A stretch of DNA of 40,598 nt. Origin: a virus. The notes under the pieces are model-generated. The model saw nothing but the letters and a program-made list of their open reading frames with translations. It ran no database searches and was not told the DNA's origin. The translations under genes were made by a program, and so were the position numbers. The DNA is taken from IMG/VR virus record IMGVR_UViG_3300030430_004503, positions 1-40,598 of that record; one strand, given 5' to 3'. Of the stretch, positions 5,158 to 38,866 are shown piece after piece. Each line of letters begins with the position of its first letter. The stretch's first letter is position 1.

Positions 5158-5560
5158 TTATTCTCCAAATTTGTTTTGCAAGATGTACTGGTTTTGGAAT
5201 CATTCCTGAATCAGAGATTGCTTGAATATGTGTGCCATCAAAGATTCCAAGTAAATGTTCTTCCTCTTTGAAAAGGACAATATCACCAACATTTATATAT
5301 GGTAATTTGATTTGTTTATATTTAAGTTTTTTAAAAACATTATTGATTGTTTGAGGGAAATTATCACCAAGCTCTGAAATCGCTTCTAAGGCACTCTTTT
5401 CATCAGACCAGCTTATCCCTTTGGGTATTGCTGTTTGATCAGTTACAGCTTCAATATATCCGTTTACATAGCGAACACAATCCCATTTTCCCCATGCAAA
5501 TCCTTGATCTTGCACTTTTTTGAAATAATTGAATAAAATTGTTTCCCAGTCATTTTTCAT
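5150..5560 (-). CDS. Tail-tip NlpC/P60-like protein (DUF6950-like)
   Basis: 136 residues. A WGKWDCVRYV motif near residue 23 places a Cys in the Asp-Cys setting seen in the NlpC/P60-like small phage proteins (DUF6950 and the GTA gene 14 peptidase position), and GDIVLF followed by a GTHIQAI strand is the matching barrel part with a possible catalytic His. In GTAs and related siphoviruses the gene at this position, between the DUF2163-like hub and the J-like tip protein, is a cell-wall peptidase that helps DNA entry. Here the protein is short and activity is inferred only from the Cys and His. ATG overlaps the upstream stop by one base (5560). Confidence 0.65.
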   Translation of the reverse strand: MKNDWETILFNYFKKVQDQGFAWGKWDCVRYVNGYIEAVTDQTAIPKGISWSDEKSALEAISELGDNFPQTINNVFKKLKYKQIKLPYINVGDIVLFKEEEHLLGIFDGTHIQAISDSGMIPKPVHLAKQIWRING

Positions 5561-6210
5561 TATTCTAATATTTGTCTTGTTTCTAATGGGTCATCACCAC
5601 CAGAAGGCCCACCGCCTGAACCTCTTCCTGCACTTGTTGGCCCCCAATTTATCACTGCTTCTTGTAGAGCTTGAACAAAATCTAAACCTTTGTCACCAGC
5701 AAATAAGTTTTGCTGACTTGCTCTTGTATATCTCAAGTTTGTAGGTCTTGAAAAATCTATTAATCTATTTTCAAGCTCAACTGAAATTGTATTGGTTGAT
5801 GGGCCATCTGATATTGACATATTCATTATTCTGCCTTTAAAAATAATAAAAGAACTTGCAACTTCATTGTTTCCTGAAAGGAAGCCCATGTGGATAATAA
5901 CATGTCTGTTTTGATAATTTTCTGCTAAAGCTAGATCAATAATTTCTTCGTTCATGCCTGATAAGGCAAGTGACATACCAGTGCTTGAAAGCTCACTTGT
6001 GTCCTCAGTTGAACTGATACTCAAAAGATCACCAGCACCAAGATAGGTTTGACCACCCAAAGATAAATCTTGTGTACCATTCCAAATACGAATTGTGTCT
6101 GTATCAAACAAAAGTTGTACTGCAAAAAACAAAGAAGTTTTATCAGCTTGAATATTCTTTTGAATTTTTAGTTTGTCTGTTGCCGATAAATTGTCAAATC
6201 TACTAGCCAT
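5560..6210 (-). CDS. Minor tail/baseplate hub protein (DUF2163/GTA gp13-like)
   Basis: 216 residues, one base overlap on both sides with its neighbours, so part of a tightly coupled tail-tip operon. The middle (WNGTQDLSLGGQTYLGAGDLL, then ELENRLIDFSRPTNLRYT and LFAGDKGLDFV) is typical of the DUF2163/phage BR0599 group, which in GTAs forms the hub of the tail tip. The protein is shorter than full GTA gp13 and ends in a Gly/Pro-rich tail. A structural role is well supported by position; the exact family assignment is from memory of motif patterns. Confidence 0.65.
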   Translation of the reverse strand: MASRFDNLSATDKLKIQKNIQADKTSLFFAVQLLFDTDTIRIWNGTQDLSLGGQTYLGAGDLLSISSTEDTSELSSTGMSLALSGMNEEIIDLALAENYQNRHVIIHMGFLSGNNEVASSFIIFKGRIMNMSISDGPSTNTISVELENRLIDFSRPTNLRYTRASQQNLFAGDKGLDFVQALQEAVINWGPTSAGRGSGGGPSGGDDPLETRQILE

Positions 6211-7091
6211 TAGACCACCTCAATACATGAAAAACTTATACCATAATTTGATACTTTGTCTGCTGACCAACCAACTTCAGGGCTTACCAATCTGAATAAA
6301 CCTTTAGGATTTGTAAACACAGCAAAACTTCCATCTGCAAAATCTGCTCTTAATTTTGGTTCAATTCTAACTGAAAAATGATTCAAAGCACTTCCGCCTT
6401 GTGATGTTTCTGTCGCATCTTCTACTACTTGTACCAGTTGAACTGGATTTGTGGTTGTAGAACTTGTACCTTGAATTTGTAAATAATCGCCAACTTTAAT
6501 TGTACCTGTACCACTATTTGAACTTGCTTCTAAAGATAAAGCTTCTGCTCCTTTTACATTTTGCCTTACTTTGCAACTAGCTGTACTACTCTCTGTCACT
6601 AAAGTTTTATCTGATGTAAATTGTGTATTAGTTCCTGCAATATTAGTAATTTTATGTGTCCCATTATTTTCAGGATTGACAGCTCCTGTAATATGAAAAA
6701 AATCACCCACAGCTAAACCTGTTAAAGCTGTACCAGCAGTTATAACTGAAGTGGTGGCATTGAAACTAAGAGTGACATTTGTATTATTAACTCTTGGGTC
6801 AGCTATTAAATGTGTTGTGCTGTAAGTGCCTTTGTTGGCTAAAGCATCAGGGTCTGCGAATTTAAAATAATTTTCTTGTCCTTTTAATTGCATCAAAAAA
6901 GATTGCCAATTAACTGCTGTTGATCTTCGCATTGGCGGTAAGGAAACATCTGCTGTCCAATAAACCCCATCAAATTCTTGAACTTTATATTTAAAACTAA
7001 AGGGTGAGCTTGTTATACCTTGTGCCCTTACAATTCTAAAACTACTTGTAACAAAGTTTGGGGTTGTTGGCATTGCTATTGTTCTAGGCAT
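6210..7091 (-). CDS. Distal tail/minor tail protein
   Basis: 293 residues, directly downstream of the tape measure gene, where siphoviruses encode their distal tail or gpM-like protein. The N-terminal third (FRIVRAQGITSSPFSFKYKV, then W.ADVSLPPMRRSTAVNWQSFL) fits the beta-rich fold of distal tail proteins that measure substitution of positions in a sheet; residues about 110-250 are Thr/Ser-rich and resemble an inserted beta domain. The last residues GISFSCIEVV end the domain on a strand. No catalytic motif. The role is inferred from order and composition, not from a firm family match. Confidence 0.6.
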   Translation of the reverse strand: MPRTIAMPTTPNFVTSSFRIVRAQGITSSPFSFKYKVQEFDGVYWTADVSLPPMRRSTAVNWQSFLMQLKGQENYFKFADPDALANKGTYSTTHLIADPRVNNTNVTLSFNATTSVITAGTALTGLAVGDFFHITGAVNPENNGTHKITNIAGTNTQFTSDKTLVTESSTASCKVRQNVKGAEALSLEASSNSGTGTIKVGDYLQIQGTSSTTTNPVQLVQVVEDATETSQGGSALNHFSVRIEPKLRADFADGSFAVFTNPKGLFRLVSPEVGWSADKVSNYGISFSCIEVV

Positions 7092-7105: not shown

Positions 7106-9373
7106 TTAAGCACCTTGTAAAGCTCCTCTAAATCTTAGATTTCTTTCAGCACTTTCAGATACAGCAGATTTTGTTGCATCAGCTATTTGTGGCATAAGTT
7201 GTAAAACCTCATTTCTTACAGTAGCTTGAACACCAGTAGCAAAGTTTACAGACTGATTGACAACAACTGTTTGTCCCCCACCAAGTGCATTTCTTGTATT
7301 CATGTTGTTAAGCAATGTTCCACTGGCATGAGGTACAAATAATTCAGGCCCTCTTTCTCCTACAAGTTTTGGCATTCTTGAGTGCATTGCTCCACCCCCT
7401 GCCATTCCTACTGAACCAGACCCTGCACTTGATGTTTCAGGTGCTGGTGTATCATTACCAAAGTTACTAAATATACTATCTATGATTGGGTCAATAATTG
7501 ACATTTGTATGAACGCCGCAACAACTTGATCAACTATCCGTAAAGCTAAATTTTTAAATGATTCCATTGCATCTTCACCACCTCTTAATGCTTGAACAAA
7601 TTCATCAGCAATAGCCAAGCTTGATGCTGTAAGTGCATCTTCAAGTGCATCGCTAAATACAAATGCTTCTTTTTCACCCTCACCAAAAAAGTTAGAAAGT
7701 TTTTCTGCAGCTTCATCAACTGTTAAACCAAATTCTTCTCTTAAAAAATCTGCCATATCCTCTAATTTTTCTTTGAAAAATTCAGGGTTTTGATTTTTAA
7801 ATTCCTGATTTAGTAGAGCTGTCGCATCTGTTGCTTTTGTAAGTGAATCAAATAATAATCTATCATCAACTGGTAACAATTCAATTTGTAGATTTCTCAT
7901 AAAATCTTCTTCTGACATTCCAAATATAGTTTTGAAAAATTCTGATCTGAAATCAAATTCTGCTGGATTGATTCCGAGCATTCTAAAATAAGTTTCTGTT
8001 CCTCTAAGCATTGTTGGCTCTGCTTCACCAAATACTGTTTTTTCTAAGTCTAAAATTGCATTCTTTCTGAATTCAACAAAATCACCTTCCAATTTGTCAA
8101 GAACATTTTTTAAACCACCAGCTTCATTAATGATTTGTTGTATTGTTAGTTCAGGTGGTTTTATCTTTTTAAACGCATTTGCTAAATCAAGCACTGAGCC
8201 TGATAGTCTTTTTACTGGGTCAATTGTAACTGTTATATTATCTTCTACTGCTTTACTTTTTTCTGCTAATGTATCTCCTTCTTCTGCTGTTTCTTTAAAT
8301 GCTAGACTGAGTGCTCCATAAGCTGCTGTACTTGCTGCGGCAATGATTCCAGTATTCACAAGAATTGAAACACCTCTTGTTTGAATCGCTTGTAAAATTG
8401 ATTGAGCTACTGTCAAGTTTTGTATAACTTGTGATAATGCTTTAAATGCAGTTGTGATTGTTCCAATATTTGCTATAACCGCTGCAACACTTGCACCGAT
8501 AAGAAGTGATAAAAATACTCTTAAATTTTCAATAGCAAGAAGTATAGGTTCTGTTAGTAGTTTGAGAGCACCTGTTAAAACCACACCGATTACATTTGCT
8601 ACACCTTTAGCATTATTTAAAATAGCGGCTAATCTTCTTGAAAAACTTGTGAGAGCTTGAGCAAAACCACCATCACCAATTGCTACAAAGAATTCTGAAA
8701 TTGCATCTTGTAAGTTTGATATAGCACCTGATAAGGTATTTGCTCTTTCTGCAATAGCTGTTGGAAATTTTTCTCTTCCAATACTACGAAGAAAATCTAT
8801 AACAGCACTACCTGATCTATCAATTGTTGTTGTGACACCATCAAAGGTAACAGTAATTTTATCGCCCTGTTGTCTTGCAATTACACCAAACTGTTTCAGC
8901 ATTTCCATCTCACCAGTAGTAGCATTAAAAGCTGCTTGAGCAAGGTCAGTAATTGATTTACCCATACCAGCGGCGAAGTTACCAAAATCTTGTAATACTC
9001 CTGCTGTTGGCACTACCCCAGCTTGTTTTAAAGTTATAAATGCTCTTGCTACTTCATCAATTTGGAATGTGGTTCTGCTTGTAAATTCTCTGATAAGATC
9101 AAAACTTAATGCGGCATTTTTCGCACTTCCAGTTACTGCTCTTAATGTTGCTTCTAAATCTTCAAATGTTCTTATCGTATTAACAATATTTCCAAGAACA
9201 ACCCCAACTCCTAAAGTTGCAAGAACAGCACCTACTTGTTTTAAACTATCACCGACACTTTTGGATTTTTGTTTTGTTTGATCTAATTTTTTATTAACAT
9301 CTGCAAGACCTGCTTTAAGTTTTGCGGTTTCTGCTTTGATCTCAATTAAGAGTGTATCAACAGTTTTAGCCAT
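7106..9373 (-). CDS. Tail tape measure protein
   Basis: 755 residues, the longest complete tail gene. The N-terminus is a charged coiled coil (about residues 1-45), followed by an Ala/Gly-rich hydrophobic region and several hydrophobic helices (about 255-360), then a long mostly helical region. The C-terminus carries the tape-measure signature GERGPELFVPHASGTLL (around residue 665) after a Gly-rich linker, as in lambda gpH-type and many siphoviral proteins. Using the usual rule of about 0.15 nm per residue, the tail would be roughly 110 nm. It starts with ATG sharing one base with the stop of the tail chaperone upstream. Confident. Confidence 0.93.
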   Translation of the reverse strand: MAKTVDTLLIEIKAETAKLKAGLADVNKKLDQTKQKSKSVGDSLKQVGAVLATLGVGVVLGNIVNTIRTFEDLEATLRAVTGSAKNAALSFDLIREFTSRTTFQIDEVARAFITLKQAGVVPTAGVLQDFGNFAAGMGKSITDLAQAAFNATTGEMEMLKQFGVIARQQGDKITVTFDGVTTTIDRSGSAVIDFLRSIGREKFPTAIAERANTLSGAISNLQDAISEFFVAIGDGGFAQALTSFSRRLAAILNNAKGVANVIGVVLTGALKLLTEPILLAIENLRVFLSLLIGASVAAVIANIGTITTAFKALSQVIQNLTVAQSILQAIQTRGVSILVNTGIIAAASTAAYGALSLAFKETAEEGDTLAEKSKAVEDNITVTIDPVKRLSGSVLDLANAFKKIKPPELTIQQIINEAGGLKNVLDKLEGDFVEFRKNAILDLEKTVFGEAEPTMLRGTETYFRMLGINPAEFDFRSEFFKTIFGMSEEDFMRNLQIELLPVDDRLLFDSLTKATDATALLNQEFKNQNPEFFKEKLEDMADFLREEFGLTVDEAAEKLSNFFGEGEKEAFVFSDALEDALTASSLAIADEFVQALRGGEDAMESFKNLALRIVDQVVAAFIQMSIIDPIIDSIFSNFGNDTPAPETSSAGSGSVGMAGGGAMHSRMPKLVGERGPELFVPHASGTLLNNMNTRNALGGGQTVVVNQSVNFATGVQATVRNEVLQLMPQIADATKSAVSESAERNLRFRGALQGA

Positions 9374-9546
9374 CAGTCAGGGTACAACTCCTGTAATTCG
9401 GCAAGTCTGTCTTTTGTCATTGATTCCGTTTTTTGTCCACTTGTATTGAACTCAATAAAACCATTGACAGCTTTGTAAATTTCTTTTGGACTAGAATTCC
9501 AAAAGTCTTTGGGTCGCATACCTATCATACCAAAACAAATTTCCAT
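9373..9546 (-). CDS. Tail assembly chaperone (Phage_TAC_6/rcc01693-like), probably made as a -1 frameshift extension
   Basis: Short frame of 57 residues from the first ATG (9546), ending in TGA that shares a base with the tape measure start. The sequence GMIGMRPKDFWNSSPKEIY is the hallmark of the small chaperone family that follows GTA gene 10. The family normally has about ten residues before this motif, and here the frame is open upstream of the ATG back to a slippery GGGAAAG at the end of the preceding gene, giving VDSLPIKRY before the Met; no ATG, GTG or TTG lies in that stretch and there is no obvious ribosome site at the ATG. The simplest reading is a fusion product like lambda gpGT. 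Confidence 0.7.
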   Translation of the reverse strand: MEICFGMIGMRPKDFWNSSPKEIYKAVNGFIEFNTSGQKTESMTKDRLAELQELYPD

Positions 9547-9569
9547 GTATCTTTTGATAGGTAAACTAT

Positions 9570-9917
9570 CTACTTTCCCCCTGCTTTCTCACCCCCTGAT
9601 TCTTCGCCTGAATCATCAGATAATGTTGTCGCTAGTAAGGTTGCTACAACTTTTGTTGATTCAACAATACCTGCATCTTGCACAATCTTATTGATTTCTG
9701 TTTGTTGTAAATCATTTCCACCACCCCTAAGTGCTGGTAACAAAACAGTAACGAGGTCTCTGATTCTCACATCACCCTCGCCCATTCTTTGCGCAACTTT
9801 TATAATACCTTGACCTAATGCATCTTCTATCTGCATTAGTGCATCTATCGTAAGCCTTGCCTTATATTCTTTATTATTAAGACTTAGCTTTATTTCGCCC
9901 TTTAATGGATTCGCCAT
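9570..9917 (-). CDS. Tail tube/tape chaperone, GTA gp10-like (lambda gpG position)
   Basis: 115 residues from the ATG at 9917, chosen because AGGAG lies at good distance upstream; a longer frame to 9950 adds 11 residues without support. The sequence (KLSLNNKEYKARLTIDALMQIEDALGQGI) matches the GTA_gp10 group of small proteins between the major tail protein and the tape measure, which chaperone tail assembly. The C-terminus is a disordered Gly/Glu/Ser stretch ending GEKAGGK at the slippery site. The gene starts inside the preceding frame (41 nt overlap). Probable partner is its own frameshifted longer form. Confidence 0.75.
   Translation of the reverse strand: MANPLKGEIKLSLNNKEYKARLTIDALMQIEDALGQGIIKVAQRMGEGDVRIRDLVTVLLPALRGGGNDLQQTEINKIVQDAGIVESTKVVATLLATTLSDDSGEESGGEKAGGK
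9573..9579 (-). promoter_or_regulatory. Slippery heptamer GGGAAAG for -1 ribosomal frameshifting
   Basis: Read on the minus strand the end of the upstream gene is GCA GGG GGA AAG TAG. It contains G GGA AAG, the same heptamer and phase used in the lambda G/GT tail chaperones, immediately before the stop. A -1 slip enters exactly the frame of the downstream tail chaperone. Efficiency cannot be judged; I did not find an obvious strong stem downstream. Confidence 0.65.
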
Positions 9918-10137
9918 TCTTAGCTCCTTTTTCAAGACTTGCAACTGCAAGTTTTATATTTAATAAATTGTCTATATTATTTATTGTTGTTGATAAAACA
10001 TTGTAAGTTTTTTTACCAACTTTGATTGAATCACCAACTTCAATTACATTTGGAATCTCAAGTTCTGATTCATCATGCTTCAACATTGCAGGAATGCTTT
10101 CACCATCAACGGAAACTTTTACACTATTCCAAGCCAT
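9877..10137 (-). CDS. Small conserved-position tail protein, unknown function
   Basis: 86 residues between the major tail protein and the gp10-like chaperone; its ATG shares a base with the stop of the major tail gene and its 3' end overlaps the next gene by 41 nt. The sequence is beta-rich in the first half (KVSVDGESIPAML, IEVGDSIKVGKKTY) with a charged basic tail. I recognise no family. Position suggests a tail tube accessory or assembly factor. Confidence 0.55.
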   Translation of the reverse strand: MAWNSVKVSVDGESIPAMLKHDESELEIPNVIEVGDSIKVGKKTYNVLSTTINNIDNLLNIKLAVASLEKGAKNGESIKGRNKAKS

Positions 10138-10586
10138 TATGCATCAAAAGCTGTAATTAGTATTATTCCACTTGATTCAAAAGACATTGAGTAAGTAGCT
10201 TCTCCATTGTACTCACCTGCATATTCAAGTGATGAAATCATAAACTTTCCTCTGAATTTAAAAAACTGAGGAATGAAAAACTCTAAGTTTCTGAAAGCCG
10301 CAGTTTGTGCGGTTGAACCATCAACTTGTAAGTTTTGTTGTGCCAAGTACATATCTTTGAGCAAACCTTCTGATGCTGAATCAGTAAAAACACCACTGCC
10401 AGAAATGGAAATTGAATTAACCCCACCACCTGCAAGAAGTTCTCTATATCCGTTAGAACTCTTATTTGTAATATCTACTGCTTCATCATTTAGAGTAATT
10501 GAACTTGATCTGAGACCACCGATTGTTACATAAGTGCCTGAGTTATCAACCTTGATCAAGACATCTTTACCTTTTTGTGCTGCCAT
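10137..10586 (-). CDS. Major tail (tube) protein, GTA gp9/TP901-1 type
   Basis: 149 residues with the pattern of Phage_tail_2 proteins: an opening strand GKDVLIKVDNSGTYVTIGGL, SITLNDEAVDITNKSSNGYRELL, a GVNSISISGSGVFTDSAS segment and a closing strand YSMSFESSGIILI. This family forms the hexameric rings of the siphoviral tail tube. It sits after the DUF3168-like terminator protein and before the chaperones, the standard order. Good ribosome site (AAAGGAG) upstream of the ATG. Confidence 0.85.
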   Translation of the reverse strand: MAAQKGKDVLIKVDNSGTYVTIGGLRSSSITLNDEAVDITNKSSNGYRELLAGGGVNSISISGSGVFTDSASEGLLKDMYLAQQNLQVDGSTAQTAAFRNLEFFIPQFFKFRGKFMISSLEYAGEYNGEATYSMSFESSGIILITAFDA

Positions 10587-24601: not shown

Positions 24602-25477
24602 TTAAAAATCTTTTAAATAATCACCTAAAAAATACTTAGATCGCCAACCAAGAGATTCTGTCTTATCGCTAATAACAGGTGCAGTTTGTCTGTTTCCTTT
24701 TTTCGCCTTTGTAAATTTATAGTCCATATTTAACATTTCCGCAATTTCTAAAATGCTGAATGATTCTTTAGAGCCAATGCCAAAACCATCTCCTTTACCT
24801 TTTAAGGCAATATAATGCAGACCGCTTATTATATCTTTTATATGTGTAAAATTTCTTCTTTGTGTGCCCGGTTTTGTAATAGGTAATTTTTTACAACCAA
24901 TTTTTTTTAATTCAATAAATTTAGCAATAACTGTAGCATATTTACCATTTTTTATTTCTCTTTCACCATAAACATTATAAAAATAAGAAATTGCAAAATC
25001 TAAATTGAACCAATCACAATAAGTTTTTACCAGTTCTGTATTTGCACTTTTTGTAAAAGCATAGGGGCTAGTATATTTAGCTGAACCATCGTCACCAAAT
25101 TTTGTACTTGAACCTGCATAAATTAATTTGGCATTATGTTTTTTAACAAATTTAAGAACTTCATATATAGAATTCCAATTGTATTGAAACACTTTATCAA
25201 TATCATCAAAACTTTGCTCAACCCTTGAATATTCCCCAAGGTGAAAAACTAAATCAAAATTAAATAAATAGTGTTTAAAAATATCATTTATTTCTATGGT
25301 TTCGCCACGATAGAAATGACAAAGATTGCTTAGATTTTCTTTTGAGCTTGTAAAATTATTATCTAAACAGTAAACATCATTTTCAAGAACCAATGAATCA
25401 ATTAAATGACTACCAACAAAGCCACAACCACCTGTAACTAAAATTTTTTTATTTTTTAATTTTAAGTTGCATTCCAT
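24602..25477 (-). CDS. NAD-dependent sugar-nucleotide epimerase/dehydratase (extended SDR)
   Basis: 291 residues from ATG 25477; a GTG at 25492 is possible. Rossmann motif KKILVTGGCGFVGSHLIDSL, D in VYCLDNNFT, AGSST, and the catalytic SPYAFTKS (YxxxK) are in order, and NFTHIKDIISGLHYI is the usual substrate-part motif. This is the UDP-glucose 4-epimerase/GDP-mannose dehydratase class; substrate cannot be read. Next to the glycosyltransferase it probably supplies its sugar donor. Minus strand inside a plus-strand operon. Confidence 0.87.
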   Translation of the reverse strand: MECNLKLKNKKILVTGGCGFVGSHLIDSLVLENDVYCLDNNFTSSKENLSNLCHFYRGETIEINDIFKHYLFNFDLVFHLGEYSRVEQSFDDIDKVFQYNWNSIYEVLKFVKKHNAKLIYAGSSTKFGDDGSAKYTSPYAFTKSANTELVKTYCDWFNLDFAISYFYNVYGEREIKNGKYATVIAKFIELKKIGCKKLPITKPGTQRRNFTHIKDIISGLHYIALKGKGDGFGIGSKESFSILEIAEMLNMDYKFTKAKKGNRQTAPVISDKTESLGWRSKYFLGDYLKDF

Positions 25478-26327
25478 AATTATTTGGTTCACCTTTAGGT
25501 TGCCAATCTTTTTTTCTGACCAACTTATTTTTTTTCATAAAAGGTTTGTAATCGCAGTGATGGTGCCATCTTTTATATTTAAAACTCAATTTACAAACAT
25601 CACCATGTGTATCAACCATCATTTGGCTTTTTGCCAATGTGCCATCTTTATAAAGCTGATCAGTATTTCCACCTTTCATAACTTGAGTTGTAACCTTATC
25701 TTGAAGCAATGCATTGAATAAAACAGTACACCAACCCTTTTTAAGCATATCTAAAGAAAGAATTGTGTCTTCATTATATCTGCCCCTCCATCTAAAAGGC
25801 ACATCAGTTCTTATTAAATTACAGCTGTATATTCTTGAGTTTACTGTAATTGGTGGTTTTGTAACTCGTGATGGAAAAAAATAATCGTAATGTGGACCAG
25901 CCATTGCTACATTTTCATACCTTGCACAAAAGTCTTCAATAATTCTTAAAGGTGCTCCATTCGCAACCCTTATTTTTCTATTTTTATGCATTCTTCTAAA
26001 ACCCATAATATTGTCGTCCATTATCCAATGCCATTTATGCCCCTCTTTTTCTGCAGTGTCCCAAATAAAGTTCCTTGCAGGGCCACTTCCTGTAGTCTTA
26101 GACTGTCCTAAATCGTCGCAGAGGTCGTATTTTTCTTTATACGACATATCTAGTTTAATAAGTTTTTTCTCGTCTCCTACCTCGTTTAAATAGTTATCAT
26201 ATTCGTCAGGCTCAACAACAAGTCTGTAAGGAATGCCTAAGCTGTCCCACCATTTGCTTGTTAATCTTGATTCCCACCTACCCTTGCTTGGTATAAATAT
26301 CGGATATTGAGGGTCAGTCTGATTCAT
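25449..26327 (-). CDS. TAGT-type glycosyltransferase (TET-associated family)
   Basis: 292 residues. YPIFIPSKGRWESRLTSKWW, YRLVVEPDEYDNYL, SGPARNFIWD and HKWHWIMDDNIMGFRRMH fit the TAGT family, GT-A-like enzymes described in phages where they glycosylate hydroxylated or hydroxymethylated DNA bases. DDN is the likely metal/nucleotide-sugar site. No TET/JBP oxygenase, hydroxymethylase or DNA methyltransferase was found in the window, so the acceptor is unknown. Overlaps the ParB-domain gene by 14 nt and the SDR gene by 29 nt, so one operon. Confidence 0.82.
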   Translation of the reverse strand: MNQTDPQYPIFIPSKGRWESRLTSKWWDSLGIPYRLVVEPDEYDNYLNEVGDEKKLIKLDMSYKEKYDLCDDLGQSKTTGSGPARNFIWDTAEKEGHKWHWIMDDNIMGFRRMHKNRKIRVANGAPLRIIEDFCARYENVAMAGPHYDYFFPSRVTKPPITVNSRIYSCNLIRTDVPFRWRGRYNEDTILSLDMLKKGWCTVLFNALLQDKVTTQVMKGGNTDQLYKDGTLAKSQMMVDTHGDVCKLSFKYKRWHHHCDYKPFMKKNKLVRKKDWQPKGEPNNYGMQLKIKK

Positions 26328-33538: not shown

Positions 33539-34018
33539 TTAGTCTTTGGAAGAATTAGATGCTCCGAAGTAAAACGAGATAATAGCACTAGCTAGACCAC
33601 CCAAATAACCAAGTACTAGATTTATAAGTGCTTCTGAATTCTGCTCTGGCGGTTGCAGAGTAACTAAAAATATATAACCGAGAAAGCCACCTATTGTTGC
33701 AATACCAATTATTCTTGCTGTCCAATCTTTTGAAAAATGTTTTCTAGCATCTTGTTTTTCTTGTGCTTCAAGAGCAAAAATATCTACACCAATTTCTGCC
33801 ATATCTTTTTCAAATTGCAACTCTGCTTCTTTTAATTTAAGAGAATCTTCTTTTGACAAAGGTTTACTTAATGCAGATTGAACTGTTTTAGGATTTGTGT
33901 CTGATAAACCAAGTTTCTCTGCAATCATTTCAGCAGCCATTCCACCCATAGGGCCACCGAGTGCTGTTCCTAATGTAGGTGCTACTGCACCCAAAACACC
34001 TTGTAATAGTTTTTTCAT
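33539..34018 (-). CDS. Holin-like membrane protein
   Basis: 159 residues: a Gly-rich amphipathic head (GAVAPTLGTALGGPMGGMAA), an acidic helical middle (LKLKEAELQFEKDMAEI), and two spans (RIIGIATIGGFLGYIFLVTL and ALINLVLGYLGGLASAIISF) before FGASNSSKD. This arrangement recurs in marine phages as the putative holin (GTA_holin-like). It shares four bases with the cyclase stop. Confidence 0.75.
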   Translation of the reverse strand: MKKLLQGVLGAVAPTLGTALGGPMGGMAAEMIAEKLGLSDTNPKTVQSALSKPLSKEDSLKLKEAELQFEKDMAEIGVDIFALEAQEKQDARKHFSKDWTARIIGIATIGGFLGYIFLVTLQPPEQNSEALINLVLGYLGGLASAIISFYFGASNSSKD

Positions 34019-35751
34019 TTTTTAAATGTATAAATTTTTAGTTTATCTTTTTTACCTTTGACCACTATATCATCTAATTTAACCAAATCAAAAGAACAAT
34101 TCTTTGCAGTTTCTTCTCCAATTAAAACATCTTTACCAACAACCTTTGTATTTGATTCAAGTCTTGCGGCAACATTACAAGGGTCACCAATAAGACTAAA
34201 AGCAAACCTATCAGATGCACCAAAGTTTCCTGCTAAAACTTCACCTGAATTAACCCCAAGTCCAATTGCTATTTTTGGTATGTTTTCTTCTTCAAACTTT
34301 TTGTTAAGTTCAGCTATATTTTTTTGGATTTCTTTTACAGCTTTAAGAGCTAAATCGTGGTGATCTGGTTGAGGAATAATTGTATTGAAATGAAACATAC
34401 CTGCATCACCAATAAATTTATCTGTTACACCAAAATATTTATTAACTGCTTTGACTTGAACATCTAAAACATTGTTCATAATATAACTGACTTTTTCAGG
34501 TTCTATTGATTCTGATAATTTTGTAAAGCCTCGTAAGTCTGAAAAAATTATTGAGCAATCTACTCTTTTTCCATTAATCTGACATAGTTCAGGATTGTCT
34601 TGTAACTTCTTAACCATTCTTTTATCTAAATATTTACCGAACTGGTTCTTAATTTGTTCTCTAAGTTTCCATTGTTTTCTAAAGGAGAAATAGTAAGAGG
34701 TACTTGCAATTATAAATTGTCCGATTAAAGTCCATGTAACATCTATTAAAACTCCATTTTTAATTGTCCAAAAGCCGTAAAAAGCTGTAGAAAGAAAGAC
34801 CAAAACACTAAGGGTAAGACTAAGGGTAATACCAAAAGAACTCGTTAGAAGCCAAATAAGCAGCCCAGAAAAGATAAAAATAGCTATTTCTAGGGTTAAA
34901 TGCCAATTTGGTATGTAAGGACTGTTTTCTAAAAGCATTGTTTCTGCTAATGCAGTTTGAATTTTATGCGGTTCTAAAAGTCCAGCAGGGGAAGAAATGG
35001 TCGGCATAATTCCTGAAGCAGTAAAACCTATGAAAACAAATTTATCTTTGACATCTAATTCTTGCAGATTTGTTTCACTTGTTTCAATCCAAGATATAAA
35101 TTTCTTTCCTTGTGAATCTGTATTTATAGGCGGTAAGCCTTGCACTCTGACTTGCTCAATTCCTAATTCGTTTGTTTTAATAATATAAGTATCAGCACCA
35201 ACCAAGATTTTTAAAACTTCAATTGCAAAAGAAGCAACCCAACCATCAGGAGTTTGATATAAAAGCGGTATCTGTCTTACAAGATTATCAACATCAACAG
35301 ATGCAGATGCAAGACCCTCGTTTGTGCTTGATCGTAAAGGTTCAACATTATTAATTGTCCCTTTTATAAAATTTGTCTTTACATCTTCACCAAGAATTAC
35401 CGTGCCAACAGTCTGTGGATAAATATTGTTTTCATATTCAAAAATAGATAACACAGAATTTGACAGACCAAGGACTTCTGCAAATGCTTCGTCTCCACCT
35501 AATCTATCTTTATGAGGCATAGCAAGAACCCAGCCCACACCTAAAGCTCCTGCATTTATTATTTCTGCATGGATTTTAGCTAACTCCAATCTTGGTATTG
35601 GATAACCACCTTGTTCATCAACAAATTTTTCATCAAGGTTTATTACAGTAAAATATCCTGATTCTTCAAACTTTGGAACAAAATAATCAAAGGTTCTAAG
35701 TTTAATAACCTGTTGATAAGTATGTTGAAAAAGCAGAGGTAAACTCAGCAA
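34015..35751 (-). CDS. CHASE2-domain adenylate cyclase (class III)
   Basis: 578 residues from the only usual start (TTG 35751). CHASE2 sensor at about 20-270 (periplasmic), three spans at about 284-303, 308-328 and 332-354, a linker helix, then the cyclase from 400: FSDLRGFT (metal Asp405), DKFIGDAGM (Lys445, metal Asp449), and SLIGDPCNVAARLE with Asp523, Asn526, Arg530. Lys and Asp are the adenine-selecting pair, so product is probably cAMP. All catalytic residues are kept. The frame is open upstream and would add NKLFPLFFVLLLSLPLLF, the first anchor expected in CHASE2 proteins, but no ATG/GTG is there; an ATA after AGGA near 35784 could serve. Not usual in phages. Confidence 0.9.
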   Translation of the reverse strand: MLSLPLLFQHTYQQVIKLRTFDYFVPKFEESGYFTVINLDEKFVDEQGGYPIPRLELAKIHAEIINAGALGVGWVLAMPHKDRLGGDEAFAEVLGLSNSVLSIFEYENNIYPQTVGTVILGEDVKTNFIKGTINNVEPLRSSTNEGLASASVDVDNLVRQIPLLYQTPDGWVASFAIEVLKILVGADTYIIKTNELGIEQVRVQGLPPINTDSQGKKFISWIETSETNLQELDVKDKFVFIGFTASGIMPTISSPAGLLEPHKIQTALAETMLLENSPYIPNWHLTLEIAIFIFSGLLIWLLTSSFGITLSLTLSVLVFLSTAFYGFWTIKNGVLIDVTWTLIGQFIIASTSYYFSFRKQWKLREQIKNQFGKYLDKRMVKKLQDNPELCQINGKRVDCSIIFSDLRGFTKLSESIEPEKVSYIMNNVLDVQVKAVNKYFGVTDKFIGDAGMFHFNTIIPQPDHHDLALKAVKEIQKNIAELNKKFEEENIPKIAIGLGVNSGEVLAGNFGASDRFAFSLIGDPCNVAARLESNTKVVGKDVLIGEETAKNCSFDLVKLDDIVVKGKKDKLKIYTFKK

Positions 35752-35783
35752 TAAAACAAAAAATAAAGGGAATAATTTATTTA

Positions 35784-36890
35784 TTAATCCTGAGTAATTC
35801 TTATTACTGATGAACTTCCCCCATTTATTTTTACAATTTTTGACACACCATCTTGAATAAATATTACTGTATATGACCCATCAATATTCAAATCAACTCT
35901 TGCGAAATTGGAAACTTGCCTTTGTAAAGTTATAGTATCACCAACAATAAACGATGTGATTTGTGTTTCTAAATCTTGACCTAATTTTGTTCCTGATAAG
36001 ATGGTAGAATTGACATCTTGCAGAGCATCTTGTTCTTCTTGATCAAAGTCATCAATAATCTGTAATAAATCCTCCAGAAAATTTGTATCAAGAGCATCAT
36101 AATCAAGTTCCGTAAATTCCAGACTATCTTCTTCTAATTCATCTTCTGCTAAATAATCAATATCAAGATCACTAAAATCTAATATAGAATCGCTTTCGCT
36201 TGAATAAACTGTTTCTTCTTCGCCAAACTCTTCTTCAGGTGGAGATACAATCAACATGTTATCAATCATATCTAAAGATAAATCAAGTATTACAGGAACA
36301 CTTGGAGCACTTTCAAAAACATCTACTGTTGTTGCTTGATAAGGTTTATTAAGAGTGACAGTGCCAATAGCTGTTGTAACCAGTATTTCACCACTAGGTA
36401 AACCGCTATCATCAGGTAATAAAATAATGAGAGAACGCCCCAATTCATCAACAGTACAGGTAAAATCTGTACCTCGTATTGTAATGTTGGCAGTTGGAGT
36501 GCTGAGCTGAATATTTTGTTTGGCAATTTTTCCTAATTTACTTGTTATAAATCTCGCTGTACCACTTGCAAATTTGAGAGCCATTTTGCTTTTTGATGGG
36601 TCTGGGTCAAAGATATATTCATCAATCACCAACTTGCTATGTTCTGTTAGTCTTACTTTTGAATCATCAAGAAAGGTAATAGCCATACGACCATTACGAG
36701 TAATAGCTTGATCATTAGATGCTATCGCAAAATCTAATTTAGCTTCATATGATTTATCTCTTAATACTTCGGCATTACCTTTTAATTCAGAAACTCCACC
36801 AATATTAACAACTGGTAGAGCCCCCTGAATCGGACTGTATAATGCACAGGTTAGAATTATTGCCGTTTTGTATGATTTTAAGATAGTCAC
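35784..36890 (-). CDS. Secreted FecR-domain protein
   Basis: 368 residues from GTG 36890. Signal peptide SYKTAIILTCALYSPIQG, then the FecR domain about 30-170: ITRNGRMAITFLDDSKVRLT, SKLVIDEYIFDPDPSK, FASGTARFIT and TANITIRGTDF. Next is a very acidic region (about 210-290, runs of Asp/Glu), then a C-terminal beta part. In other bacteria such lone FecR proteins are often next to CHASE2 cyclases and may be their periplasmic partner. The first 86 nt overlap the end of the curlin-like gene. Not a TonB sigma regulator here. Confidence 0.85.
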   Translation of the reverse strand: MTILKSYKTAIILTCALYSPIQGALPVVNIGGVSELKGNAEVLRDKSYEAKLDFAIASNDQAITRNGRMAITFLDDSKVRLTEHSKLVIDEYIFDPDPSKSKMALKFASGTARFITSKLGKIAKQNIQLSTPTANITIRGTDFTCTVDELGRSLIILLPDDSGLPSGEILVTTAIGTVTLNKPYQATTVDVFESAPSVPVILDLSLDMIDNMLIVSPPEEEFGEEETVYSSESDSILDFSDLDIDYLAEDELEEDSLEFTELDYDALDTNFLEDLLQIIDDFDQEEQDALQDVNSTILSGTKLGQDLETQITSFIVGDTITLQRQVSNFARVDLNIDGSYTVIFIQDGVSKIVKINGGSSSVIRITQD

Positions 36891-37533
36891 GAGCTAATGT
36901 ACTTGATTGAGTAATGTTATAAGTATTTGAATTTCCATCAATATCCATGTAAAGGTAGCCACTATCGCTTGATGAAGTTCCACTGTAACCATCTAAATTT
37001 GCTGTAATTGTATTTGAGCTTCCATTTATATCTATAAAATTTATAGCATTGGAATAATCTAGGTCAAATGTAAGTGTATTTGAATCACCCAAAATAACCC
37101 AGTCCAAATCTAAATAAGAAGCACTATCATCTTCGCCAATATCTACATCAAAAGTATTTGTGTTTCCTGTTACCTGAATATTCATATTCACGAAATCTGA
37201 AGTTATCAAACCTGTGCTATTCATCAACATATCGTAAACATTAGAATCACCAGTAAACTCAAAAAAGCCTGTAAAACTTTCACCATCAATAGCATCTGAT
37301 CTAAAGATATTTGAAGAACCAATTTGATTGATGTCCAAAGTCATAGAAGCACCATCTAAATCTAGTGCAGTTAAAGTACCAGCAACTGAATCCGTACCAC
37401 CAATTAAGTTATTAGAACCTAATTGTTCAAGATCAATAGAAGCATTATTTCCATTTTGATCAATATATATTTCATCATCTGCTGACAAAACACCTATTAA
37501 AAATAAAACACTTAAAACTAATTTTTTATTCAT
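36805..37533 (-). CDS. Secreted curlin-like repeat protein (candidate amyloid)
   Basis: 242 residues from ATG 37533 (GGAAAT before it). Signal peptide KKLVLSVLFLIGVLSA. The mature part has about eight repeats of the curlin kind: IYIDQNGNNASIDLEQLG, LDINQIGSSNIF, FTGDSNVYDM, VTGNTNTFDV, ILGDSNTLTF, INGSSNTITA, DGNSNTYNI and IIQNGNNSNL, with spacing near 22-25. The first and last repeats keep Gln and Asn as in CsgA/CsgB; the middle ones have mainly G-x-(S/T)-N. It ends GGSTSC. It is most likely the substrate of the CsgG/CsgF pore next to it. A calcium-binding or adhesin fold cannot be excluded. Confidence 0.8.
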   Translation of the reverse strand: MNKKLVLSVLFLIGVLSADDEIYIDQNGNNASIDLEQLGSNNLIGGTDSVAGTLTALDLDGASMTLDINQIGSSNIFRSDAIDGESFTGFFEFTGDSNVYDMLMNSTGLITSDFVNMNIQVTGNTNTFDVDIGEDDSASYLDLDWVILGDSNTLTFDLDYSNAINFIDINGSSNTITANLDGYSGTSSSDSGYLYMDIDGNSNTYNITQSSTLARDYLKIIQNGNNSNLCIIQSDSGGSTSC

Positions 37534-38326
37534 ATTTCCAAAAACCTCTTTCATAACCTTTATTTATTAATTCAAGCACTGCACCTTCTATTGCTTTTTG
37601 GAGAGCTATTGTTCCACTTTCGTTTTCAGTGTAACCAAATTCCAATTCAACAAGTTCAGTACCCTGCTCAATAAATTTAAAAACATCTTGGGATTTACCC
37701 CAAGAAAAGATAGTCTTTTGGCTAAGAATCTCAATTAAGATTTCACCAGTTGCTACTGAAACCATGCGAAGCGAAACGGTAACTGTATCTTCTCTAAACT
37801 GATCACTTGAACCAATTCCAAGATACCGCGCTCCGACACCACCTGTTCTTATATTTGTATCATAGCTTAGAACTGCTCCCTCAAGCAAGACCCCTGCCAT
37901 GAGAAGAGGACGAAGTGGTTGAGCATCTTCAGTTAATTGTTCCCTTGCTGATCTTATTAATTGACGTTCCTTTGTAAGATTGTCTAAACCTACCCTTTCT
38001 ACAACTGTAAACATTTGACCATTACCAGAGTGTTTTAATGCCCTTATTAAAAGGGCAGATGGGGCTTGTGTAACTGCTGTACTGAATAAAGCAAAAGAAC
38101 TGTTACTTTTTCTTTGACCAGTTTGATCTATAAAAGCATTTGGATATACAGCAACAACAGGTTTGTTCTTTGGTAAAGGTACTTCTAAAAGTTTTTGGTT
38201 GTGGATATGTCCAATCTGAAAGCTATCATCTCTATGATTTATTGCATTATTGGTATTTAAACCAGCACAACTAGAAAGTAAAAGCACCGATAGGCACAGT
38301 AATTTCTGTGGTATTGCCCTCGGCAT
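37526..38326 (-). CDS. csgG: CsgG-like outer-membrane curli secretion channel (lipoprotein)
   Basis: 266 residues from ATG 38326; an in-frame start at 38377 is possible. Lipoprotein signal with lipobox LLLSSC (Cys20). The mature region follows E. coli CsgG closely: VVAVYPNAFIDQTGQRK, FSTAVTQAPSALLIRALK, VVERVGLDNLTKERQLI, LEGAVLSYDTNIRTGGVGAR, YLGIG, VSLRMVSVATGEIL and KFIEQGTELVELEFGYT. It ends just after YERGFW, so the C-terminal tail of the E. coli protein is absent. CsgG is a nonameric pore exporting curli subunits. Overlaps csgF by 56 nt and the curlin-like gene by 8 nt. Confidence 0.95.
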   Translation of the reverse strand: MPRAIPQKLLCLSVLLLSSCAGLNTNNAINHRDDSFQIGHIHNQKLLEVPLPKNKPVVAVYPNAFIDQTGQRKSNSSFALFSTAVTQAPSALLIRALKHSGNGQMFTVVERVGLDNLTKERQLIRSAREQLTEDAQPLRPLLMAGVLLEGAVLSYDTNIRTGGVGARYLGIGSSDQFREDTVTVSLRMVSVATGEILIEILSQKTIFSWGKSQDVFKFIEQGTELVELEFGYTENESGTIALQKAIEGAVLELINKGYERGFWKYE

Positions 38327-38801
38327 CTGTGACTGTAAGAGTGATAAATAATCCATCTGCTGAAACCTCATATTCAATAGTATTTCCCATTAATTCTAAA
38401 ACTCCACTTGTACTTGGAGTTTCACCAAACAGATTATCTACAAGTTGTCTTGACAACTGTGCATAAATTCTGCTTTCTAGGTTTCTTATAAACCTTGCCA
38501 AAGTTGTATTTTCAGCTTCTCTTTTGAGTTCGTCTTGATATGCTTTTATTTCTGCTTCTAATGCTTCTTTTCTATTAAATTCTTGATTCTCAATTGTTAA
38601 ATAATGTGAGCTTGTATTGATACCACTAAATGAGGGTGATTTAAATTTGTGAATTAGCTCGTCTGCTGTAACCATATTTGCAAAAAGCATTACAGCAAGA
38701 AATGGTAAAATAAAAAATGAACAACCTTTATTCTTTTCTACATAGTAAGAATCCAAACCAATTTTTTGATTTTTTGTTTTTTTATTTTTTAAATTAGCCA
38801 T
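38271..38801 (-). CDS. csgF: CsgF-like curli assembly factor
   Basis: 176 residues from ATG 38801; start uncertain as no ribosome site is seen. The likely signal is SFFILPFLAVMLFANMVTA. The mature start DELIHKFKSPSFSGINTSS matches the CsgF head (QFRNPNFGGNPNNG in E. coli) which inserts into the CsgG pore; then an Asn-rich to helical part (LARFIRNLESRIYAQLSRQL) and the C-terminal strands YEVSADGLFITLTVTD and TTEITVPIG. The central helix is longer than in E. coli. Together with csgG it should form the CsgG:CsgF double-constriction channel. Confidence 0.92.
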   Translation of the reverse strand: MANLKNKKTKNQKIGLDSYYVEKNKGCSFFILPFLAVMLFANMVTADELIHKFKSPSFSGINTSSHYLTIENQEFNRKEALEAEIKAYQDELKREAENTTLARFIRNLESRIYAQLSRQLVDNLFGETPSTSGVLELMGNTIEYEVSADGLFITLTVTDAEGNTTEITVPIGAFTF

Positions 38802-38866
38802 GTAAAGAAAATATACCAAAAACCAAAACAAAAGCCTAGAACTAAAAACCAACCAGAAAGTTTCAC
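38789..38866 (-). CDS. Possible 25-residue membrane peptide
   Basis: A GTG-started frame coding for an almost fully hydrophobic peptide (WFLVLGFCFGFWYIFFTW). It fills the gap before csgF and overlaps its start by 13 nt. No ribosome site. AT-rich sequence can produce such frames by chance, so support is weak. Confidence 0.25.
   Translation of the reverse strand: MKLSGWFLVLGFCFGFWYIFFTWLI

Follow-up and report, generated by a model that had tools for sequence, protein, structure and literature searches.

How is the second of two overlapping tail chaperone genes translated when that gene lacks its own start codon? The question is raised by the window analysed here, positions 1 to 40,598 of IMGVR_UViG_3300030430_004503, read as a marine phage. 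Its late genes lie on the minus strand, as do all features of the junction (Table 1), in an order like that of gene transfer agents (GTAs): terminase, portal, capsid, connectors, tail tube, chaperones and tape measure. A programmed -1 ribosomal frameshift resembling that of lambda G/GT very probably joins the two chaperones. A preliminary description had already read them as a G/GT pair, and this reading is supported by the conservation and phase of the slip site, by the absence of a start codon and by protein-level selection upstream of the first ATG.

Gene context and reading frames of the chaperone junction

Two overlapping small ORFs, the second in the -1 frame, separate the tail tube and tape measure genes. 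The gp10-like product of the first matches PF11836 (Phage_TAC_11, GTA-gp10) with E 7.9e-19 and 68 bits (gathering cut-off 27.8), and the second matches PF09550 (Phage_TAC_6) with E 2.7e-6 and 28.1 bits (gathering cut-off 23.4). By homology and position, both are predicted to be tail assembly chaperones. The rcc01693 model TIGR02216 matches the second chaperone weakly and below its curated cut-off (13.2 bits for 56.1), which identifies the latter as only a distant relative of the rcc01693 family. The tape measure ATG (9373) overlaps the stop codon of the -1 frame. A further ORF of 86 aa (9877-10137, minus strand) is located between the tail tube and gp10-like genes and overlaps the start of the latter. 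It has no match in Pfam, PHROG or NCBIfam.

Table 1. Features of the tail gene region, in window coordinates
Feature	Position	Strand	Basis or remark
gp10-like tail chaperone 1 (G-like, 115 aa)	9573..9917	-	PF11836 match and ORF; ATG 9917, TAG 9572-9570
Putative slippery heptamer G GGA AAG	9573..9579	-	in the gp10-like phase; sole GGGAAAG of the window
Open -1 frame, predicted tail chaperone 2 (T-like)	9373..9588	-	PF09550 Phage_TAC_6; would be used from GTA at 9573; first ATG 9546, TGA 9375-9373
Shine-Dalgarno-like AGGGGGTGAG, possible stimulator	9588..9597	-	anti-SD pairing energy
Hairpin, possible stimulator	9519..9563	-	9-bp perfect stem TACCTATCA / TGATAGGTA
Tape measure protein	7106..9373	-	phrog_1716, E 1.4e-37
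Tail tube protein, expected chaperone partner	10137..10586	-	PF06199 Phage_tail_2, E 1.3e-31

Elsewhere on the minus strand, the phage genome carries a gene resembling sugar-nucleotide epimerases/dehydratases (24602-25492; PF01370, E 9.9e-34) and a curli-like (type VIII secretion) gene set (34015-38852) placed between a lysozyme and an S74 tail-fibre chaperone domain. This set includes CsgF (PF10614, E 2.7e-15), CsgG (PF03783, E 2e-51), FecR, a CHASE2-cyclase and a repeat protein (36805-37554) that resembles curlin by eye and has no Pfam match. A relative of the CsgG protein (85% identity) occurs on one other viral contig (L184). Cargo, an adhesion function and host DNA are candidate readings of this set.

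The gp10-like ORF ends GAG AAA GCA GGG GGA AAG TAG, its stop directly following the heptamer. Letters and phase are those given in the preliminary description, which had recognized GGGAAAG as the lambda G/GT heptamer. Indeed, the lambda shift site is G_GGA_AAG (PMC7618472), and both systems have it close to where the first chaperone gene ends, in identical phase. A slip of -1 leads, as had been described, into the second chaperone frame, which is open from 9588 to its TGA. The predicted product, ...EKAGGK|VDSLPIKRYMEICFGM..., is a fusion of 181 aa and contains the expected peptide GGKVDSLPIK. The claim that N-terminal residues of the second chaperone lie upstream of its first ATG without a start codon also holds, since the -1 frame includes no ATG, GTG or TTG until ATG 9546, 24 nt past the TAG, and the conserved domain begins before that codon. 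GGGAAAG is found once in the 40,598 bases (both strands), against 4.2 occurrences expected by shuffling, and this single copy is at the correct junction and in the correct phase. When the gp10-like C-terminus was recoded synonymously with the codon usage of the window, GGGAAAG appeared at that spot in 0.2% of trials.

Conservation of the putative slip site and of the peptide upstream of the first ATG

The heptamer was searched in 62 distinct junctions of viral origin, one of them that of the window. In 61 of these, GGGAAAG or AAAAAAG, both known as strong bacterial shift sites (PMC5009743), lies in phase within the frame overlap. Such heptamers account for 62 of 813 codon steps inside the overlap (one junction has two). 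Elsewhere in these genes they are about 95 times rarer (5 of 6203 steps). They precede the stop by 7 nt in the clade of the window and by 22 nt in the largest one, with distances of 10, 25 or 28 nt in other clades. The surrounding residues differ between clades, and GGGAAAG is exchanged for AAAAAAG. A motif that shifts position and changes heptamer and yet is kept is difficult to account for other than as a slip site. Conservation in relatives, proposed in the preliminary description as a check and its absence as a refutation, was confirmed, with AAAAAAG as a replacement in some clades. L044 is the sole exception, with G GTA AAG where the heptamer would be expected. Recoding of twelve representatives gave 0.3-18% each; these are not fully independent and their product is not relied on.

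Two further phage records, L045 (Desulfofustis phage) and L048, also speak for a slip site, with an equally phased G GGA AAC. Three records were not counted: the Cellulophaga phage L049 includes AAAAAAG but its second frame is +1 rather than -1, and L046 and L047 carry other in-phase heptamers (CCCTTTA and AAACCCT).

The window is a metagenomic contig, and this is the only point in favour of an assembly error or a decayed gene, in which a single chaperone gene would have been split by a lost base. However, all 62 distinct junctions, which come from many contigs, show the same frame relation, and the -1 frame is under selection (see below). This explanation is refuted by conservation and retains a negligible probability. 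Slippage of RNA polymerase, generating a mixed mRNA population that encodes the fusion, is scarcely more probable. Some sister clades (L098, L064) do exhibit a run of nine A at the site, the length of known bacterial transcription slippage (PMC5009743), but the window and most relatives have GGGAAAG and no long homopolymer, and polymerase slippage would not depend on heptamer phase.

The segment between the slip site and ATG 9546 codes for S/K-L-P-I-K-R-Y in the clade of the window. Over 49 sequences, these seven codons show mostly synonymous variation and no stop, and pN/pS of the -1 frame before the first ATG is 0.22 as opposed to 1.1 and 2.5 in the other frames. This indicates that S-L-P-I-K-R-Y of the -1 frame is under purifying selection as a protein. 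Sister clades are without ATG 9546; TTT stands there in one of them, whose next ATG falls within the conserved core. A few relatives have TTG or GTG near the core. The low pN/pS together with the TTT of the sister clade suggests that translation enters the frame of the second chaperone before the first usual start codon. It argues against a product starting only at the internal ATG, the outcome that the preliminary description had named as a refutation of the frameshift.

The same observations weigh against the alternative that ribosomes reinitiate past the TAG, at ATG 9546 or at some other internal codon, and translate the second chaperone independently. The short distance from TAG to ATG would suit such a restart, which the Shine-Dalgarno-like stretch near the end of the gp10-like gene, upstream of the stop, would serve, and stop-start coupling is found in other members of the chaperone family. 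However, a product of ATG 9546 would lack the residues conserved as protein, the sister clade would have to restart within the core, and the in-phase heptamers would be left unexplained. We consider reinitiation improbable at this junction, although somewhat less so than the two preceding explanations.

Candidate stimulators and comparison with known frameshift systems

Two elements that the preliminary description did not mention flank the slip site: a Shine-Dalgarno-like stretch upstream and a stem downstream. The former, AGGGGGTGAG, is located about 10 nt 5' of the heptamer; its pairing energy with the anti-SD is -12.7 kcal/mol (gene background -3.3). It is strong compared with the gene background but not rare compared with synonymous recoding (P 0.09), its strength following in part from the residues encoded, and it is retained only as a possible stimulator.

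The stem (TACCTATCA/TGATAGGTA) is a perfect 9-bp helix with arms 27 nt apart and begins 9 nt 3' of the heptamer. Over 49 sequences, 90.7% of the stem cells are able to pair, and one pair covaries (U-A, C-G or A-U according to clade). The downstream region of the window is more stable than its synonymous recodings (z -2.5, P 0.01), with an average z of -2.1 in the largest clade, while some clades are without excess structure. The short stretch directly after the slip site has no excess structure in the clade of the window, and codon indels kept a gapless alifold over the -22 clade from reaching a consensus structure. In other clades the conserved stem is farther from the slip site. Since its distance varies between clades, the stem is a likely but unproven stimulator.

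An SD-like element about 10 nt upstream combined with a downstream stem-loop resembles the -1 cassettes of E. coli dnaX, where the arrangement is SD plus stem-loop (PMC5009743), and of IS elements. The A AAA AAG of dnaX is also the heptamer of sister clades of the window. However, the genes are unrelated and the candidate stimulators of our sample vary between clades.

Resemblance to lambda extends to the location between tail tube and tape measure genes and to the predicted -1 fusion of two small tail proteins. It differs in the protein families involved (here Phage_TAC_11 and Phage_TAC_6), in the stop that directly follows the heptamer of the window and in the SD-like element and stem that flank the site. 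In lambda, the tape measure is served by many copies of gpG and few of gpGT, and the T part binds the tube protein (PMC5009743). By analogy, a majority of ribosomes would follow the gp10-like frame to the TAG and release the 115-aa G-like protein. A minority would move back by one nucleotide at G GGA AAG, where both tRNAs re-pair with GGG AAA, and continue through GTA GAT AGT to produce the 181-aa GT-like fusion with its Phage_TAC_6 domain. The SD-like element and the hairpin may stimulate this slippage. The G part would then bind the tape measure and the T part recruit tube subunits.

Frameshifts of this kind in tail chaperones have been known since lambda and are common in long-tailed phages (PMC5009743), and the majority of R. 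capsulatus phages reportedly carry one (PMC8601537). What seems undescribed is a frameshift, as proposed here, in the Phage_TAC_11/Phage_TAC_6 pair of a group of marine phages. It would bring the GTA-type tail chaperone pair (gp10, gp10.1) into the G/GT logic of lambda. It would also explain why the small chaperone is truncated by gene callers, because it lacks a start codon of its own.

Chaperone junctions of chromosomal gene transfer agents

The g10 (rcc01692) and g10.5/rcc01693 products of the R. capsulatus GTA belong to the same two protein families as those of the window, and clusters of RcGTA type have the same gene order. The preliminary description stated that the two chaperones are separate genes in GTAs. 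Chromosomal alphaproteobacterial loci can be divided into several groups according to junction type, and the statement holds for some of them only. In L147 and L148, the top two against the rcc01693 model, an ATGA stop-start overlap links separate, coupled genes, in contrast to the heptamer overlap of the window, where the second chaperone lacks the usual start present in such loci. Several other loci have ATGA or GTGA stop-start overlaps.

A further group combines an in-phase heptamer with the lack of a usual start ahead of the conserved core. The heptamer is CCCTTT plus C, T or G in L149, L150, L151, L159, L160, L165 and L167, and GGGAAAG in L154. L161 combines GGGAAAG with a TTG at its stop, and L156 includes three GGGAAAG within a repetitive tail. 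L135 is a good match with neither a stop-start overlap nor a start-less in-phase heptamer at its junction. The regions around L154 (L177) and L149 (L176) contain the GTA set, from terminase to the GTA_TIM/Rcc01698_C protein, within 17 kb. From this gene content, both are identified as bona fide chromosomal GTA clusters, so that in at least two of these the chaperone frames overlap with an in-phase heptamer, contrary to the earlier statement. The L177 junction is GGGAAAG-TAG, as in the window, while in the L176 family C CCT TTC is in phase in 5/5 loci found to carry the chaperone. In-phase GGGAAAG or CCCTTTC at the g10/g10.1 junction, with no usual start codon before the conserved core, was observed in L177 (8817-9185 and downstream), L176 and L179-L183.

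In the L176 family, an ATG within the core shares bases with the zero-frame stop (TGATG or TAATG), making reinitiation a rival there. It is weaker in L154/L177, where 35 nt separate the stop from the internal ATG. Moreover, protein coding may partly account for CCC TTT, as the peptide PFPW is itself conserved, and the CCC TTT codons of the GTA loci are not rare enough alone to prove selection. With coupling in the loci closest to rcc01693 and heptamers at other GTA junctions, the two modes would have interchanged. We lean slightly towards the view that some true GTAs make the second chaperone by programmed -1 frameshift and that both modes have interchanged in phage/GTA history. Our literature search turned up no description of frameshifting in the tail chaperones of GTAs; a Wolbachia GTA paper deals with a +1 shift in a hydrolase. 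The frameshift proposed for the window also offers a simple test of whether the phage mechanism that sets the ratio of the chaperones was retained or replaced in GTAs.

The L176 cluster also includes, between its portal and protease genes, an ORF (5426-6622) resembling an acyl-CoA dehydrogenase by eye.
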